From: Thermogemmatispora onikobensis
Lineage (GTDB): Bacteria > Chloroflexota > Ktedonobacteria > Ktedonobacterales > Ktedonobacteraceae
Assembly (NCBI RefSeq): GCF_001748285.1
Contig: NZ_BDGT01000045.1
Coordinates: 1 to 40,271, forward strand
Reading direction: 5' to 3'
DNA: 40,271 nt
Part shown: positions 23,284-30,567 of the stretch, in pieces
How the letters are laid out: each line of letters begins with the position of its first letter
Position numbering within the stretch: position 1 is the first letter of the stretch
Position numbers and translations under genes: made by a program
Notes under the pieces: model-generated
Told to the model about the DNA's origin: nothing
Database searches by the model: none
The model's input: the letters and a program-made list of their open reading frames with translations, nothing else

Positions 23284-24315
23284 TCACAGCGGGGGATTCT
23301 GGCAGCTCGGATTGAGCACCGCCTGGACCTTGGGATCGTTGAGATTGGCCTTGGTCAGGATCGTTACCCCCGTATCCTCGCTCTGGACGGTGGCGTGCTG
23401 GCGCAGAATGCGCACCATTGCATTGACGCTGTCATAGCCCATCCTAAAGGGGTTCTGCACCACCAGGGCCGAAATCGTCCCCTGCTGCACTCCCTTGACC
23501 TCGTCGGGGGCGGCATCCCAGCCGATGATCGTGATCTTGCCAGCTTTGCCAATGCGGCGCACCGCCTCCGCCGCCCCCAGTACGCTCGGCTCATTGGCGG
23601 CAAAGATTCCATTCAGATCGGGGTGGGCCGTCAGGATGTCCTCGGCCACACTCAGCGCCTGGTTGTAGTCGCTGTGGCTGGACTGGTCAGCGACGAGCTG
23701 AATGCCCGGATACTTGGCCAGCTCTTGCTTGAAGCCCTGGACACGCTGATCATTGGTGGCGCTGCCCGGCTGGAACTCGATCAAAGCCACCTTACCATGA
23801 CCGTTGAGCTGCTGAGCCAGCAGATCGGCAGCCTTGCGCGCTGAGGCGATGTTATCAGTGGCAAAGAGCGGCACGTTGGACGGCTGCGGATAGGTGCCCG
23901 AGTCGATATTGACCACGGGAATGTTTGCCTTGAGGGCCTGCTGCGTCACCTGGTAGAGGGCGCGTGCATCGGTAGCGGCGTAGATCAGGCCATTGACATG
24001 CTGCGTAATGTAGTTGGTCAGCAGGTCGATCTGCCCGGTCACGTCGGTCTCAGCGGTCACGCCGTTCCAGATCACTGAAACCTGCTGCTGCTTCGAAGCG
24101 GCGCACTCCGCCCCTTTGTGGACCTGCTCCCAGAAGTCGAAGCCGATGGCCTTGGGAATGACGGCAATCCTGAGCGGTCCAGAGGCAGTAGTGTTGTTAT
24201 TACTGCCTGATGACTGTACAGTGACACTGCCACAGGCACTGATCAGGCCGGCCACCAGCAGTAGCCAGAGAGGAAAGAAGATATCCCGCACCAGTCTGCG
24301 CAGAAGTTGTCGCAT
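23284..24315 (-). CDS. Sugar ABC transporter substrate-binding lipoprotein, RbsB type
   Basis: The start ATG at 24315 is preceded by AAAGGAGG with 8 bases between. Residues 1-28 are a lipoprotein signal with lipobox LISAC (Cys28). A type I binding fold follows: RIAVIPKAIGFDFWEQVHKGAE, IPVVNIDSGTY, GKVALIEFQPGSATNDQRV, IFAANEPSVLGAAEAV and IIGWDAAPDEV. It captures a monosaccharide for the permease and ATPase genes upstream on the same strand. Position opposite the L-fucose catabolic operon makes L-fucose or a related deoxysugar the likely ligand. A 394-base gap separates it from the permease gene, so it may have its own promoter. Confidence 0.9.
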   Translation of the reverse strand: MRQLLRRLVRDIFFPLWLLLVAGLISACGSVTVQSSGSNNNTTASGPLRIAVIPKAIGFDFWEQVHKGAECAASKQQQVSVIWNGVTAETDVTGQIDLLTNYITQHVNGLIYAATDARALYQVTQQALKANIPVVNIDSGTYPQPSNVPLFATDNIASARKAADLLAQQLNGHGKVALIEFQPGSATNDQRVQGFKQELAKYPGIQLVADQSSHSDYNQALSVAEDILTAHPDLNGIFAANEPSVLGAAEAVRRIGKAGKITIIGWDAAPDEVKGVQQGTISALVVQNPFRMGYDSVNAMVRILRQHATVQSEDTGVTILTKANLNDPKVQAVLNPSCQNPPL

Positions 24316-24709: not shown

Positions 24710-25738
24710 TTAGCGGGTGCTCTCCGCAAAGCGGCGGCGGCGGAACTGGTCCCAGATCACCGCCAGCCAGATAATGACGCCGATGATAACGCTCTGCGTA
24801 AAGGTATCAATATTGAGCAGGACCGCCCCGTTGCGGATCACCGCCATCAAGAAGGCCCCAATCAGGGTGCCCAGAATGGTGCCCTGGCCGCCGAAGAGGC
24901 TGCAGCCTCCGATGACGGCGGCGGCGATGACATCCAGCTCCAGCCCGTCACCAAAGTTGGGCTGGCCCGAGGCCACGCGCGACATGGCCACCATGCCCCC
25001 GAAGCCGGCCAGCAGGCCCTGGAGCACATAGACGGCCACCAGATAGGCGCCGACGCGAATGCCCGCCAGGCGTGCCGCCTCCTCATTGGAGCCAATGGCG
25101 TAGGTGTAGCGTCCCAGGCGTGTGCGGCTCAAGAGCAAGTGGGCCGCCACAGCCAGCACTATCAGCGTAATCAAGGGAATGGGCACGCCGTCGATCATGC
25201 CCTGGCCGAGCAGGCGAAAAGAGTCGGGGACGCCAAAGACCGCGGTAGCTCCCGTAATAATATTCACGAGGCCGCGCGCCACGCTCATCATACCCAGAGT
25301 GGCGATGAAGGGCGCCAGGCGGGCGCGGGTAATCAGCAGGCCGTTGGCCAGGCCAGCCAGGCCACCGACCAGGGTGCCGCCGAGGACTGCCAGCGGCCAG
25401 CTCAGACCGAGATCGACCATCATCTTGACGCCGAGCACCCCCGCCAGAGCCGCCACCGAGCCGACCGAGAGATCAATGCCAGCCGTGATGATGACAAAGG
25501 TCATGCCCAGGGCGATAATGGCCGTGACGGCAGTCTGTGAGACAATATTGAAGAGGTTGTAGAGAGTGAGAAAGACCGGCGAGGCGATGGAGAGCGCGAC
25601 GCAGATGACGATGAGTGCGCCCGCCGCCGCGAACTGAGAAATAAGGTCGGAGATCTGGGCTGGCAGCAGCCGGCGCCAGGAGAGACCGGTCTCCGCGCCT
25701 GGCTCGTCCGCGATCTTCCTGCTCAGAGATTCCTTCAT
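24710..25738 (-). CDS. Sugar ABC transporter permease, RbsC type
   Basis: The 342-residue membrane protein has CUT2 permease landmarks: TFVIITAGIDLSVGSVAALAGV, LANGLLITRARLAPFIATLG, RYTYAIGSNEEAARLAGI and AAVIGGCSLFGGQGTILG. About ten hydrophobic helices are visible. It starts at ATG 25738 within the stop of the ATPase gene (ATGA overlap), so the two are coupled. It is the membrane channel of the putative deoxysugar importer encoded between 23284 and 27255. Confidence 0.93.
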   Translation of the reverse strand: MKESLSRKIADEPGAETGLSWRRLLPAQISDLISQFAAAGALIVICVALSIASPVFLTLYNLFNIVSQTAVTAIIALGMTFVIITAGIDLSVGSVAALAGVLGVKMMVDLGLSWPLAVLGGTLVGGLAGLANGLLITRARLAPFIATLGMMSVARGLVNIITGATAVFGVPDSFRLLGQGMIDGVPIPLITLIVLAVAAHLLLSRTRLGRYTYAIGSNEEAARLAGIRVGAYLVAVYVLQGLLAGFGGMVAMSRVASGQPNFGDGLELDVIAAAVIGGCSLFGGQGTILGTLIGAFLMAVIRNGAVLLNIDTFTQSVIIGVIIWLAVIWDQFRRRRFAESTR

Positions 25739-27255
25739 GGGATGGTCACCTCACTGGCCCCAGTTGCCAGGGCTATGATGCGCTCTTCGCTGAACTGTCC
25801 TCGCGAGAGCGTGCCAACGATGCGCCCCTCGCGCATCACTGCAATGCGATCGCACATGTTGAGCAGCTCGGGAAGATAGGACGAAATGAGCACAATGGCT
25901 CGCCCCTCGCTCGCCAGTCTACCAATAAGGGCAAACATCTCGGCTTTGGCCCCAACATCGATACCGCGCGCCGGCTCGTCGAAGAAGATGACTCTGGCCT
26001 GCGTCTCCAGCCAGCGCGCCACGACGACCTTCTGCTGGTTGCCGCCCGAAAGGAGGCGCGCCTTACGGCGCACCGAGGGGGTGCGGATGTTAAGGCGCTG
26101 GCAGGCCTGCAAGGCAGTGGTCCGCTCGCGCCGCAAGAGTAGGAGCCCCAGACGAGCAGGAAGGCTGGCCAGGGTGATGTTCTGGTCGACCCCCAGATCA
26201 AGAGCCAGGCCCTCGCGCTTGCGGTCCTCGGTGACGTAGGCGAGGCCGGCCCGAATGGCGTCGGCGGGACGGCGAATGTGCAGCTCGTGGCCGTCCAGGA
26301 GGATGCGCCCGCTGTCAATTGGGTCAGCACCACAGACGGCACGCGCCAGCTCGCTGCGCCCGGCCCCGATCAGGCCGGCAAAGCCCAGGATCTCGCCGGC
26401 CCGCACCTCGAACGAGCAGTCGTGGAGTAGGCCGCGCCGGCTCAGTCTGTCGACGCGCAGCAGAACGGGGCCAGGATGGGTCTCGGGGCGCGGGTAGAGG
26501 TTGGTAATGGCGCGCCCAACCATGAGCTGGACCAGCTTCTGCTCGCTGAGTTCGGCCCGCGGAAGCGTGGCTACGACACGCCCATCCCGCATGACGGTCA
26601 CGCAGTCAGCGATCTGGAAAATCTCATCAAGGCGATGGGAGATGTAGAGGATGGCCACCCCCCGGGCCGTGAGCTGGCGAATGACCTCGAAGAGACGGGC
26701 AATCTCTTGCTCGGTAAGGGTGGCGGTCGGCTCGTCAAGGATGAGGACGCGCGCATTGAAGCTGATGGCCCGAGCAATTTCGACAAGCTGCTGCTCGGCC
26801 ACGGAGAGCGAGGCCACCAGGCGACGCGGGTCCAGGTCAAGACCAACCTGCGCCAGCAGATGGCGCGCCTCGGCTAACTCGCGGCGCCGGCGAATGAAGC
26901 CGAAGCGCAACGGCTCACGCCCGAGAAAAAGGTTTTCGGCGACGGAGAGGTGCGGCGCAAGGGCAAATTCCTGGTGCACCATCGCGATGCCAAGAGCGCG
27001 GGCATAATGGGGCCCGTGAAAGCTGAGGAGTTGGCCATTGAGATAGACCTGGCCAGCGTCGGGACGCTCGACCTGATACAGTATTTTCATGAGCGTCGAT
27101 TTACCGGCCCCGTTCTCGCCAGCGACGACGTGAACTTCTCCGGGATAGATGTCGAGGTCAACCTCGGCGACGGCGGTGACGCCCGGAAAGCGCCTGGTGA
27201 TCTTGCGCAGGCGAATGATCGGTGACTGCTCCGTCTCCATCGAAGTCGAAGGCAT
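25735..27255 (-). CDS. Sugar ABC transporter ATP-binding protein, double-domain RbsA type
   Basis: The 506-residue protein has two ABC domains. The first has Walker A GENGAGKST, signature LSVAEQQLVEIARA and Walker B VLILDEPTATL. The second has the usual degenerate Walker A (GLIGAGRSE), signature LSGGNQQKVVVARWL and Walker B VIFFDEPARGIDVG. Both are as expected for CUT2 importers of monosaccharides. ATG 27255 follows GGGAGG at 5 bases. It is the first transporter gene on the minus strand after the GntR gene and is translationally coupled to the permease gene. Confidence 0.94.
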   Translation of the reverse strand: MPSTSMETEQSPIIRLRKITRRFPGVTAVAEVDLDIYPGEVHVVAGENGAGKSTLMKILYQVERPDAGQVYLNGQLLSFHGPHYARALGIAMVHQEFALAPHLSVAENLFLGREPLRFGFIRRRRELAEARHLLAQVGLDLDPRRLVASLSVAEQQLVEIARAISFNARVLILDEPTATLTEQEIARLFEVIRQLTARGVAILYISHRLDEIFQIADCVTVMRDGRVVATLPRAELSEQKLVQLMVGRAITNLYPRPETHPGPVLLRVDRLSRRGLLHDCSFEVRAGEILGFAGLIGAGRSELARAVCGADPIDSGRILLDGHELHIRRPADAIRAGLAYVTEDRKREGLALDLGVDQNITLASLPARLGLLLLRRERTTALQACQRLNIRTPSVRRKARLLSGGNQQKVVVARWLETQARVIFFDEPARGIDVGAKAEMFALIGRLASEGRAIVLISSYLPELLNMCDRIAVMREGRIVGTLSRGQFSEERIIALATGASEVTIP

Positions 27256-27381
27256 GACGACCTCCCTGCGAGTGTGGCAGCGGCTTCATAGCCCCGCCCG
27301 CTCTCCTTGTACCCTGCCTGTCCCCCGCCCGCCTCCTTCCGCTTCCTGCCAGCCTGTATCGGCGCGGCCTGGCTCCTCTGA

Positions 27382-28161
27382 CTAGGAGGGGAGATGACTC
27401 TCTTCGGCAAAGATATCGGCCAGCACTCCTTCTTTGGAGTGGCGAATGTGAGCCGCTAACAGGGCAGCAGCCTCGTCGCGCTTGCCGGCGAGTAAGGCCC
27501 GCAAGATCTGCTCATGATCGTTGAGAGCGATCTCGATGCGACGTGGATAGAAACTATCGCGCATCTGGAACATGCAGAGCTGACTGCGCAGCTCCGAGAG
27601 ACAGTGGATCAGGCGCCCATTGCGCGAGGCGCGCGTGATCAATAGATGAAAGAGCAGGTCAACCTTGAGAAAGCGCAGGAAGGGATTGCTCGCCAGCCCG
27701 GCGCGAATGGCCTCTAGCTCATCGAGCTGAGCTTGCAGCTCTTCACGCTTCAGGTGCGGCGCCGCCAGCCGTAGCGCGAGCACTTCCAGCGCCTCGCGCA
27801 GGTCGTAGATCTCGTGGATGTCCTGGGAGGTGAAGGTGCGCGTCCAGTAGCCCCGCCGCGGATCGGAGCGTACCAGCCCCTCCTGGACGAGCCGCTCTAG
27901 CGCCTGCCGCACAGGCGTGCGACTGACTCCCAGTTGCTCGGCAAGGGCCACGTCGGAGAGGCGCTGCTCCTCGCTGCCGCCCAGCAGGATGACGCGCTTC
28001 CAGAGCTGCTCGTAGGCGTAGTCGGCAACGGTAGGGGTGGCGGTGCGCTCTTGCCCCCAGAGCAGGTCGAAGAGTTCACCCACAAAGCGCTCGTCAACAA
28101 CGTCGGCAACGGCTGCCGCTGCCCCCTCCCAGTGATTGGTTTCCGCTTCAGATTGGCTCAT
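27382..28161 (-). CDS. GntR-family (FadR/FCD subfamily) transcriptional regulator
   Basis: The 259-residue protein has a winged helix at about 40-110 (LSDVALAEQLGVSRTPVRQALERL, then LVRSDPRRGYWTR) and an all-helical FCD-type ligand domain with IYDLREALEVLALRLAA. FCD regulators usually bind a sugar acid or other carboxylate and release their operator. ATG 28161 follows AGGAG. It is transcribed with, or just ahead of, the transporter genes, facing the L-fucose operon. Two near-identical palindromic operators at 28407 and 28830 are probable binding sites, so L-fuconate or a later pathway acid is a plausible inducer (inference). Confidence 0.9.
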   Translation of the reverse strand: MSQSEAETNHWEGAAAAVADVVDERFVGELFDLLWGQERTATPTVADYAYEQLWKRVILLGGSEEQRLSDVALAEQLGVSRTPVRQALERLVQEGLVRSDPRRGYWTRTFTSQDIHEIYDLREALEVLALRLAAPHLKREELQAQLDELEAIRAGLASNPFLRFLKVDLLFHLLITRASRNGRLIHCLSELRSQLCMFQMRDSFYPRRIEIALNDHEQILRALLAGKRDEAAALLAAHIRHSKEGVLADIFAEESHLPS

Positions 28162-28406
28162 ACCTGCTCGCTCCTGTCTTGCTGCTTGCTAGTCTCAGCA
28201 GGCCACCCCTCGCTCCAGATCCCAGCCCTCCGCCCAGACCCGGACCGAGGTCGAGCCTGCTACGCCCCGCCGGCTTCAGCAGCCCACTTTTGCCTTCGTC
28301 GCCGCCGTCGCTCTCTCCAACCTCCGACCCGGCTGCCTCCAGTCTGCCCACGCCCACGGTGCGCCTCTCTATTTTGGCGCGCCCACCCAACTTTGTAAAG
28401 AGTACG

Positions 28407-28457
28407 CTGTATTCAGAATACAGAATATAGTATACCCAGAAGGGCCGCCCCGGTCAA
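28407..28457 (-). promoter_or_regulatory. gntR promoter with operator copy 1
   Basis: On the minus strand TTGACC (28457-28452) and TATACT (28434-28429) are 17 bases apart, a near-consensus sigma-70 promoter. It overlaps a 30-bp element (28407-28436) made of the palindrome CTGTATTC-A-GAATACAG followed by AATATAGTATACC. A GntR protein bound here would cover the start of transcription. The same element recurs at 28830-28859 with one mismatch. Confidence 0.75.
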
Positions 28458-28537
28458 GGCGCACCCCCTCGCTTTTGCCCCCAATCTGCGCCCTGTCCGG
28501 CATTGGTCACCAGGCAGCCATTGCCTCCATCGACCAC

Positions 28538-28568
28538 TTGCCACTTTCTGCATGCTGGAACGTATAAA
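28538..28568 (+). promoter_or_regulatory. Possible promoter of the membrane microprotein gene
   Basis: TTGCCA (28538-28543) and TATAAA (28563-28568) lie 19 bases apart, slightly long, about 50 bases before the microprotein start. Confidence 0.4.
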
Positions 28569-28618
28569 AAGTCGTGTGAGATGTTCCGGCACTGTCTCCC
28601 CCGACGGAGGTGAGTCTC

Positions 28619-28714
28619 ATGACTGTAACGTACTCTCCTCTCTCTTTCTTTCTGCTTCTGATCATCGCAGGGGGCCTCCTCCTCCTCTGGAGGCTCATAC
28701 ATAGTCACCATTAG
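28619..28714 (+). CDS. 31-residue single-pass membrane microprotein
   Basis: ATG 28619 is preceded by GGAGG (28606-28610) with 8 bases between. The peptide has a polar start (MTVTYSPLS), a hydrophobic helix (FFLLLIIAGGLLLLW, about residues 10-24) and a short basic end (RLIHSHH), a shape seen in small regulatory membrane proteins. A perfect hairpin terminator follows at 28763-28785. It lies between the two operators of the putative GntR regulon and next to a sugar importer, so modulation of that transporter is conceivable. No homologue is known to me. Support is the binding site, the terminator and the membrane-helix shape; translation is unproven. Confidence 0.55.
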   Translation: MTVTYSPLSFFLLLIIAGGLLLLWRLIHSHH

Positions 28715-28762
28715 TTAGCGTTCGCAAGCTGGCCAGGGCCAGCTCAGTCTGACACAGCCAGC

Positions 28763-28797
28763 CCAGCGGGCACCAGGCCCGCTGGCCTTTCTTCCGT
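28763..28797 (+). terminator. Rho-independent-like terminator after the microprotein gene
   Basis: CCAGCGGGC (28763-28771) and GCCCGCTGG (28777-28785) form a perfect 9-bp stem with a 5-base loop, followed by the pyrimidine-rich CCTTTCTTCC on the plus strand. Confidence 0.7.
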
Positions 28798-28808
28798 TAT
28801 CTGCGCGC

Positions 28809-28879
28809 TTGACTTTGTCACCTGTTGTACTGTATTCTGAATACAGAATATAGTATACCTTCAGATGGCGCAGCGTCAA
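28809..28879. promoter_or_regulatory. Operator copy 2 with promoters for both strands
   Basis: The 30-bp element (28830-28859), palindrome CTGTATTC-T-GAATACAG plus AATATAGTATACC, differs from copy 1 by the central base only. On the plus strand TTGTAC (28825-28830) and TATAGT (28849-28854) are 18 bases apart and would read into the L-fucose operon; TTGACT at 28809 is another possible -35. On the minus strand TTGACG (28879-28874) and TATACT (28857-28852) are 16 bases apart. The palindrome lies in the plus-strand spacer, a repressor position. Confidence 0.7.
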
Positions 28880-29101
28880 GCAGGCGCTTGCTCCCTCCGC
28901 CATCGACGAGGGGCGCCCGGCGCGTTATGCAGCGGAAGAGGCTCTCTCAGGCGAACCAGGGGAAGGGTCGGCGCTCCACTGGAGGTGTGGGACCATCCTG
29001 GGAGCGGGGGCTCATCAGCAGGGAGCAGGAGAGGGTAGCCTGTTCGTCTGCTCTGGCGGAGGGAGCGGCGCGTTGCCAGCCAGGTAAAAAGGAGTGGTGT
29101 A

Positions 29102-30436
29102 TTGACAGTAACCATCGTTGATGTCCGGGTCTACGATATTCGGTTCCCCACCTCGCGCACGCTGGCCGGCTCTGACGCCATGAATGCCGATCCCGACTAC
29201 TCGGCGGCCTATGTGGTCCTGCGGACCGATCATCCTCATGGGCTGGAGGGCCACGGTTTTACCTTCACCATCGGGCGCGGCAACGAGGTCTGTGTGGCCG
29301 CTATTCGGGCCCTGGCGCCGCTGGTGCGTGGGCACACGCTGGAGGAGTTTACTGCCGACATGCGCGCTTTCTGGCGTCACATAACCGGCGACAGTCAGCT
29401 GCGCTGGATCGGGCCGGAGAAGGGGGTCATTCACATGGCCACGGCGGCTCTGGTGAACGCGGTCTGGGATCTCTGGGCCAAGGTTGAGGGAAAGCCCCTC
29501 TGGAAGTTGCTGGTGGACATGTCGCCCGAGCAGCTGGTGACTTGCATCGATTTCCGCTATCTGAGCGATGTGCTCTCGCCTGCCGAGGCGCTGGAGTTGT
29601 TGCAGCGCCTGGCGCCGACGCGCGCCGAGCGCGAGGCCGAGCTGCTGCATCTCGGCTATCCTGCCTATACGACTGGAGCTGGCTGGTCGGGCTATAGCGA
29701 CGAGCAGCTGCGGACCCTCTGTCGCCAGGCTCTGGCCGAGGGCTGGCGCCATTTCAAGCTCAAGGTGGGCCTCGGTCTGGAACGGGATCGCCAGCGCGCC
29801 CGCATCATGCGCGAGGAGATTGGCCCCGACTGCACGCTGATGATGGACGCCAACCAGGTGTGGGAGGTGGGAGAGGCCATCGCCGTTATGCAGGAGCTGG
29901 CGGAGTTTGAGCCGCTCTGGATTGAGGAGCCAACCAGTCCCGATGATATTCTCGGCCATGCCGCTATCGCGCGCGCCATCGCTCCTGTGCGCGTGGCAAC
30001 GGGCGAGCATGTGCAGAACCGCATCATTTTTAAACAGCTCTTTCAAGCTCAGGCTATTGGCTTCTGTCAGATCGACGCCTGTCGCCTGGGCGGCGTCAAC
30101 GAGGTGCTGGCAGTGCTCTTGCTGGCCGCTAAATACGGGGTGCCGGTCTGCCCTCATGCCGGCGGCGTGGGTCTCTCCGAATATGTGCAGCATCTGGCAA
30201 TATTCGATTATATCGCCGTCAGCGGCTCGTTGGAGGAACGAATGATTGAATATACGCCCCACCTGCATGAGCATTTCGTGCACCCAGTGGTGATGCGCAA
30301 TGCACGCTATCTGCCACCGCTGGCCCCCGGCTACAGCGCGACGATGCACTCCGACTCGATCGCAGCCTATTCTTTCCCCGACGGGCCGGTCTGGGCAGCA
30401 GCGCGACGGGTCCAAGCCGAGCGATCAGGCGAGTGA
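29102..30436 (+). CDS. L-fuconate dehydratase (enolase superfamily)
   Basis: TTG 29102 is preceded by AAGGAG with 7 bases between; no better in-frame start exists. The 444-residue product starts with the subgroup-typical segment SDAMNADPDYSAAYVVLRTD and the stretch GHGFTFTIGRGNE. Active-site residues are in place: K219 and K221 (KLK), metal ligands D249 (MDAN), E275 (IEEP) and E302 (TGEH), and H352 (CPHAGG). It converts L-fuconate to 2-keto-3-deoxy-L-fuconate in the cytosol. It leads an operon with a mutarotase and the other enzymes of the same route, behind operator copy 2. Confidence 0.9.
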   Translation: MTVTIVDVRVYDIRFPTSRTLAGSDAMNADPDYSAAYVVLRTDHPHGLEGHGFTFTIGRGNEVCVAAIRALAPLVRGHTLEEFTADMRAFWRHITGDSQLRWIGPEKGVIHMATAALVNAVWDLWAKVEGKPLWKLLVDMSPEQLVTCIDFRYLSDVLSPAEALELLQRLAPTRAEREAELLHLGYPAYTTGAGWSGYSDEQLRTLCRQALAEGWRHFKLKVGLGLERDRQRARIMREEIGPDCTLMMDANQVWEVGEAIAVMQELAEFEPLWIEEPTSPDDILGHAAIARAIAPVRVATGEHVQNRIIFKQLFQAQAIGFCQIDACRLGGVNEVLAVLLLAAKYGVPVCPHAGGVGLSEYVQHLAIFDYIAVSGSLEERMIEYTPHLHEHFVHPVVMRNARYLPPLAPGYSATMHSDSIAAYSFPDGPVWAAARRVQAERSGE

Positions 30437-30567
30437 GGCGCGATCAGGCGCTCACTGGCGGCGCGGGTCAGGCCATGTGGCTGCCCGATCGACCCGCCCT
30501 GGACTGGGGAGGGCAGGCTTTCCAGGAGCCTGGCCGGCGCGCTACAATAACAGGAGGATTGCCTGCT

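Follow-up and report, generated by a model that had tools for sequence, protein, structure and literature searches.

A probable small membrane protein gene of Thermogemmatispora, set between two putative operators and tentatively linked to a sugar ABC importer

A few model bacteria are known to tune their transporters by means of small membrane proteins, and a short reading frame in a sugar locus of the heat-loving soil bacterium Thermogemmatispora onikobensis raises the question of whether a protein of this kind is encoded there and, if so, on what it might act. The frame lies within the 40,271-nt stretch of DNA analysed here (the window), part of a 112-contig genome assembly totalling 5,556,502 bases; the published draft of T. 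onikobensis NBRC 111776 comprises 112 scaffolds and 5,556,501 bp (PMC5064121). A first-pass annotation had described a 31-residue single-helix peptide with a good ribosome-binding site, a possible promoter and a strong terminator, placed between two operators and beside a sugar importer, and had proposed that it tunes the transporter as an undescribed part of the regulon. Our search of the freely accessible literature found no paper on the T. onikobensis microprotein. The features of the locus are collected in Table 1, where G000 is the window genome and G001 to G005 are the other genomes of the genus.

Table 1. Positions of the microgene, the neighbouring genes and the candidate control elements in the window
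Feature	Position	Strand	Remarks
Sugar-binding protein (SBP)	23284..24315	-	residues 320-343 alone left in G004
Sugar ABC importer permease	24710..25738	-	cut after residue 159 in G004
Sugar ABC importer ATPase	25735..27255	-	
GntR regulator, FCD subfamily	27382..28161	-	PF00392, PF07729
Operator 1 (putative)	28407..28436		overlaps the -10 of TTGACC-17-TATACT, a leftward promoter-like site from which gntR would be transcribed
Candidate promoter block ACTTTC-N9-GAACGTATA	28543..28566	+	without mismatch in G000, G001, G003, G005
GGAGG ribosome-binding site	28606..28610	+	8 nt before ATG 28619
Microprotein ORF, 31 aa, one predicted transmembrane helix	28619..28714	+	ATG 28619, TAG 28712-28714
Terminator-like hairpin with T-rich tail	28763..28795	+	hairpin at the same place in 4/4 distinct sequences
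Operator 2 promoter-like site TTGACT-18-TATTCT	28809-28838	+	
Operator 2 (putative)	28830..28859		one promoter-like site per strand, the two pointing toward each other
Operator 2 promoter-like site TTGACG-16-TATACT	28879-28852	-	would run antisense across the microgene toward gntR
Enolase-superfamily sugar-acid dehydratase	29102..30436	+	first gene of the catabolic run

The T. onikobensis microprotein, MTVTYSPLSFFLLLIIAGGLLLLWRLIHSHH, has a single hydrophobic stretch, whose best 19-residue Kyte-Doolittle mean is 2.33 (2.4-2.8 in the relatives), and a structure model built on a four-row alignment gives one helix over residues 7-30 with a mean pLDDT of 88 and a pTM of 0.42. Hydrophobic stretch and helix model agree on the single helix of the first description, whose coordinates were also exact. 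A short ORF with one transmembrane helix is likewise what the small transporter-associated membrane proteins share, these being a kind rather than a homologous family. The ribosome-binding site was correctly judged good: GGAGG recurs in the relatives at unchanged spacing, with GGTGG in its place in G005.

To establish whether the frame is a gene we turned to its relatives, in which a frame of 30-31 codons occupies the same place between both operators in five of the six genus genomes (G000, G001, G002, G003 and G005) and is nowhere disrupted, the sixth, G004, having probably lost most of it. The peptides, of 30-31 residues and four distinct sequences, are invariant in 10 of 31 alignment columns, with V3, P7, L8, L13, L14, I15, G18, W24 and H28 conserved throughout; identity to the G000 peptide is 81% in G003 and falls to 37-39% between the two clades compared (G000/G003 vs G001/G005). 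For every pair with differences dN is lower than dS (for example, 0.091 vs 0.318 for G000/G003). A permutation test against non-coding evolution, in which the observed substitutions were placed at random and trials with an equally good open peptide alignment were scored, returned P values of 0.0016-0.0028 between clades (0.16-0.28% of trials) and 0.02-0.03 for G000/G003; the G001/G005 pair (P 0.20) left the test undecided because it has too few changes. Judged from these comparisons, the substitutions in the ORF protect the amino-acid sequence. A chance ORF that goes untranslated could well be this short and would fit the non-significant result within the G001/G005 clade, but such a frame would hardly stay open at one place with a constant ribosome-site spacing, keep dN below dS in all differing pairs and reach a P of about 0.002 between clades, and we regard it as very unlikely. 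We are accordingly highly confident that a real, conserved protein-coding gene stands here, as the comparison of five out of six genus genomes indicates, and even a gene of 31 codons can be supported by comparative sequence alone.

The distribution of this gene is narrow. A search with the locus DNA across 41 genomes recovered the region in all six genus genomes and in none of the 35 others, and a profile of the four distinct peptides matched five of the six genus genomes at E values of 1e-17 to 1e-18. Among 47 genomes of the class, at a threshold of E <= 0.01, the profile gave one match in the 41 beyond the genus, within a frame of 1051 aa, and the four loci that turned up in GTDB contigs all belong to Thermogemmatispora. 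A scan of viral contigs gave none, and scans of the microprotein against Pfam, NCBIfam, PHROGs, PADLOC and PDB gave nothing convincing: NCBIfam PID_CTERM (two of four members, best E 0.0031) and Pfam FeoB_associated (two of four members, best E 0.18) were both put down to the composition of short hydrophobic helices. At the loose threshold of E <= 1, at least one match appears in 18 of 23 non-genus genomes of the family (best E 0.0045, for the match in the 1051-aa frame); 17 weak loci outside the genus and a few more were translated and judged to be chance frames or parts of bigger hydrophobic proteins. As far as searched, the microprotein family appears restricted to the genus Thermogemmatispora. 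Three related genomes of genus g8 (L053, L054, L056) have in common a possible gene, a frame of 44-93 aa, similar at its start, that contains an M-x-IRFTPSSVVVLLIMMDIVTCLWRQ-like stretch and matches the microprotein profile weakly (E 0.017-0.035).

The surroundings of the microgene are those of a sugar locus. To its right runs a plus-strand series encoding the enolase-superfamily dehydratase, a rhaM-family mutarotase, a short-chain dehydrogenase, an aldo/keto reductase and an amidohydrolase, a set that we take to resemble the non-phosphorylating L-fucose pathway. Because the NCBIfam matches of the dehydratase, mutarotase and lactonase lie below the curated cut-offs (167 bits vs 400 for L-fucono-1,5-lactonase), we can only infer the sugar. 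The importer belongs to the same locus as first described, but it is not the immediate neighbour of the microgene: gntR intervenes and the genes stand on the opposite strand, which places the microgene outside the importer transcript. Homologous regulators in G023 and G008 adjoin a different importer, with a 25% identical SBP, and that of G013 has no importer gene in the stretch read; the microgene is absent from all three, and the DNA before their regulators looks, by eye, related.

The operators themselves are two 30-nt direct repeats, 97% alike, that flank the ORF, so that the placement of the microgene between two operators is upheld and is also kept in the relatives. We assign them, as putative sites, to the GntR/FCD regulator; no further site with 0-1 mismatch to CTGTATTCNGAATACAG was found in any of the six genus genomes. 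Helical phasing between operators (spacings of 423, 429, 756, 756, 694 and 251) was inspected by hand, gave no sign of significance and was set aside. The candidate promoter block lies about 106 nt beyond operator 1, the stop codon falls about 115 nt short of operator 2, and no clear promoter directed into the microgene overlaps either operator. The regulon membership first proposed is thus a conjecture, and control of the microgene by the operators, for instance by looping, is unproven.

The signals that would make the microgene a transcription unit of its own are of unequal quality, the promoter being the weakest. A sigma-70 scan finds no plus-strand promoter upstream of the ORF, and the candidate block in Table 1 is statistically marginal: in three comparisons with 500 shuffles each, 18, 25 and 31 shuffles did as well, and in a fourth (217 of 500) another alignment scored better. 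Mismatch-free copies of the block are confined to the microgene, in four of the five genomes scanned, with none in G004. As a genome-wide promoter class the motif was rejected, with 17 matches at up to two mismatches vs 30 for the reversed control. For the terminator, the hairpin does fold at its place in all four distinct sequences, but the scan found one where 0.5 is expected, which is not above chance, and the epithet strong is to that extent too generous.

A short unit with a terminal hairpin directly before the catabolic promoter would also suit a leader or regulatory RNA, in which the RNA matters rather than the peptide and translation of the short ORF serves only to regulate something in the vicinity. 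The protected amino-acid sequence speaks against this, as do the lack of any Rfam match at E <= 1 over positions 27000-30500 and the downstream RNA, which has no significant alignment between clades (427 and 60 of 500 shuffles). Because the unit stops short of operator 2 and of the promoter there, it is unlikely to act as a simple attenuator of the catabolic operon, and we hold the RNA reading to be highly improbable.

What the peptide might do is best approached through G004, the one genus genome without it. This assembly is fragmented (540 contigs, 89% complete) and the contig ends just past operator 2, but both operators are present, with only 197 bases between them (as cut) and no microgene ORF. 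The later two thirds of this inter-operator DNA align with the 3' flank of the G005 microgene at a score of 60, the best of 300 shuffles being 43; with the corresponding flank of G001 the alignment is marginal (5 of 300 shuffles reach the score), and with those of G000 and G003 it is unconvincing (10 and 117 of 300). The preceding bases align with the end of the G005 ORF (its final five codons and the stop), and the score of this likely remnant was reached by 5 of 1000 shuffles for ORF plus 3' flank and by 7 of 1000 for the whole region; against G001 the remnant is not supported (37 and 93 of 1000). Since G004 branches outside the other five genus genomes in trees rooted on outgroups (support 0.94 and 0.96), one loss and one gain are equally parsimonious, and it is the likely 3' remnant that favours loss over a late gain. 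The ends of contigs C147 and C21 of G004 both carry the operator 2 flank, possibly as a repeat or through strain mixture.

The importer of G004 is broken as well. Its permease matches residues 1-159 alone and then continues in the same frame as SBP residues 320-343, giving a 182-aa ORF, and a DNA comparison with G003 puts the missing sequence at about 1.9 kb. No other close copies were found in G004, where further permease matches reach at most 51% and SBP matches at most 31% identity. The ATPase is kept (506 aa, 94% identical), and ATPase, regulator and catabolic genes together retain 90-95% protein identity, the catabolic ones in long open frames. The join itself (contig C147, L108:7387-7935) reads as a permease-SBP in-frame fusion by one deletion.

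The microgene is thus present in all five genus genomes with an intact importer and absent from the single one with a broken importer, and this joint absence of microgene and complete importer is the main evidence for an importer-linked role; the absence of the microgene beside the homologous regulators of G023, G008 and G013, with a different importer or none in the stretch read, points the same way. It is also one loss event, in a fragmented assembly: were each of six species equally likely to lose the microgene, the coincidence would have a chance of about 1 in 6, so that the transporter link of the first-pass annotation gains suggestive support from a single co-loss. Our leading reading, to which we give a probability of about 0.45, is that the microprotein, as a small membrane protein confined to this genus, tunes the ABC sugar importer or makes it more stable. 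Following the positive-inside rule, it would insert with its uncharged N-terminus outside and its basic, histidine-bearing C-terminus inside; it would then pack against the permease of the neighbouring importer through its few invariant residues and is predicted to adjust the activity or stability of the importer. In G004, loss of the importer would have made the microgene useless, and the microgene would then have decayed.

Divergence counts against this link, and so does the opposite-strand position of the microgene outside the importer transcript. Among the five genomes the permease keeps 97-99% identity (97.4-98.5% to that of the window), whereas the peptide is 37-81% identical, which is more divergence than expected for a tight interface. 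The same disparity between a fast-diverging peptide and a near-invariant importer would be natural for a small membrane protein that serves some general or stress function and happens to be encoded in this intergenic space, its loss in G004 being coincidental. Such a protein would have its own transcription-unit layout, as the ribosome site, ORF and terminator hairpin suggest, and its candidate promoter block lies outside both operators; it would give no reason, however, for the position between the two operators to be kept in all five genomes with the microgene, nor for the microgene to be missing exactly where the importer is broken. We consider this general role unlikely, though the most credible of the alternatives. 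We find improbable a more elaborate form of the importer link, namely a dedicated, lineage-specific transmembrane subunit or gate of the sugar ABC importer, expressed inside the GntR control region and switched opposite to the importer by antisense transcription from operator 2, in which a fast-evolving 30-residue helix caps uptake and disappears once the importer is gone.

Antisense transcription also enters a toxin-like reading, in which a membrane peptide toxin is paired with a GntR-controlled antisense RNA from the leftward operator 2 site. In size and single helix the microprotein resembles the type I toxins that act at the membrane, which are about 30 aa long, and in PMC8309996 the Fst/Ldr toxins are described as peptides of about 30-35 aa with one helix and a charged C-terminus. 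That source also gives them a PXXXG motif in the helix, which the microprotein lacks, P7 and the invariant G18 being 11 apart, and the curated Fst/Ldr family models gave no microprotein match listed up to E 10, although beyond about 0.1 the HMMER filters remove most matches from such a list. The antitoxin of Fst/Ldr is an antisense RNA; here a leftward promoter-like site, recognised by sequence, lies at operator 2. The spacer of this site measures 16 nt wherever the microgene is present (five genomes) and 19 nt in G004 (one comparison), but the site may be a by-product of a duplicated operator block, as operator 1 has the same layout. With one copy per genome at fixed synteny in a metabolic locus, and no toxin family match in Pfam, NCBIfam, PHROGs or PADLOC, a type I toxin pair seems to us quite improbable.

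Returning to the importer-linked reading, the nearest likeness is to E. coli small proteins that act on transporters. According to PMC7267776, AcrZ is likewise a single-helix small membrane protein and binds the transmembrane part of AcrB; its partner is an RND efflux pump and its binding is demonstrated, whereas the suspected partner here is an ABC sugar importer. The same source covers KdpF and SgrT, small proteins that act on potassium and glucose transport, SgrT on sugar uptake. MgtS, whose 31 aa equal the length of the microprotein, is tied to intracellular magnesium by the title of a work cited there. KdpF and SgrT serve other transporter types (KdpFABC and the glucose EIICB) and MgtS a different context, and the microprotein has no family match in Pfam or NCBIfam. 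The loss of microgene and importer together in G004 is a natural case that makes the link directly testable; if true, it would provide a Chloroflexota example of a small membrane protein linked to a sugar ABC importer. The microprotein may be a new, genus-restricted example of a kind already known, the small membrane proteins that act on a transporter, of which AcrZ is one.
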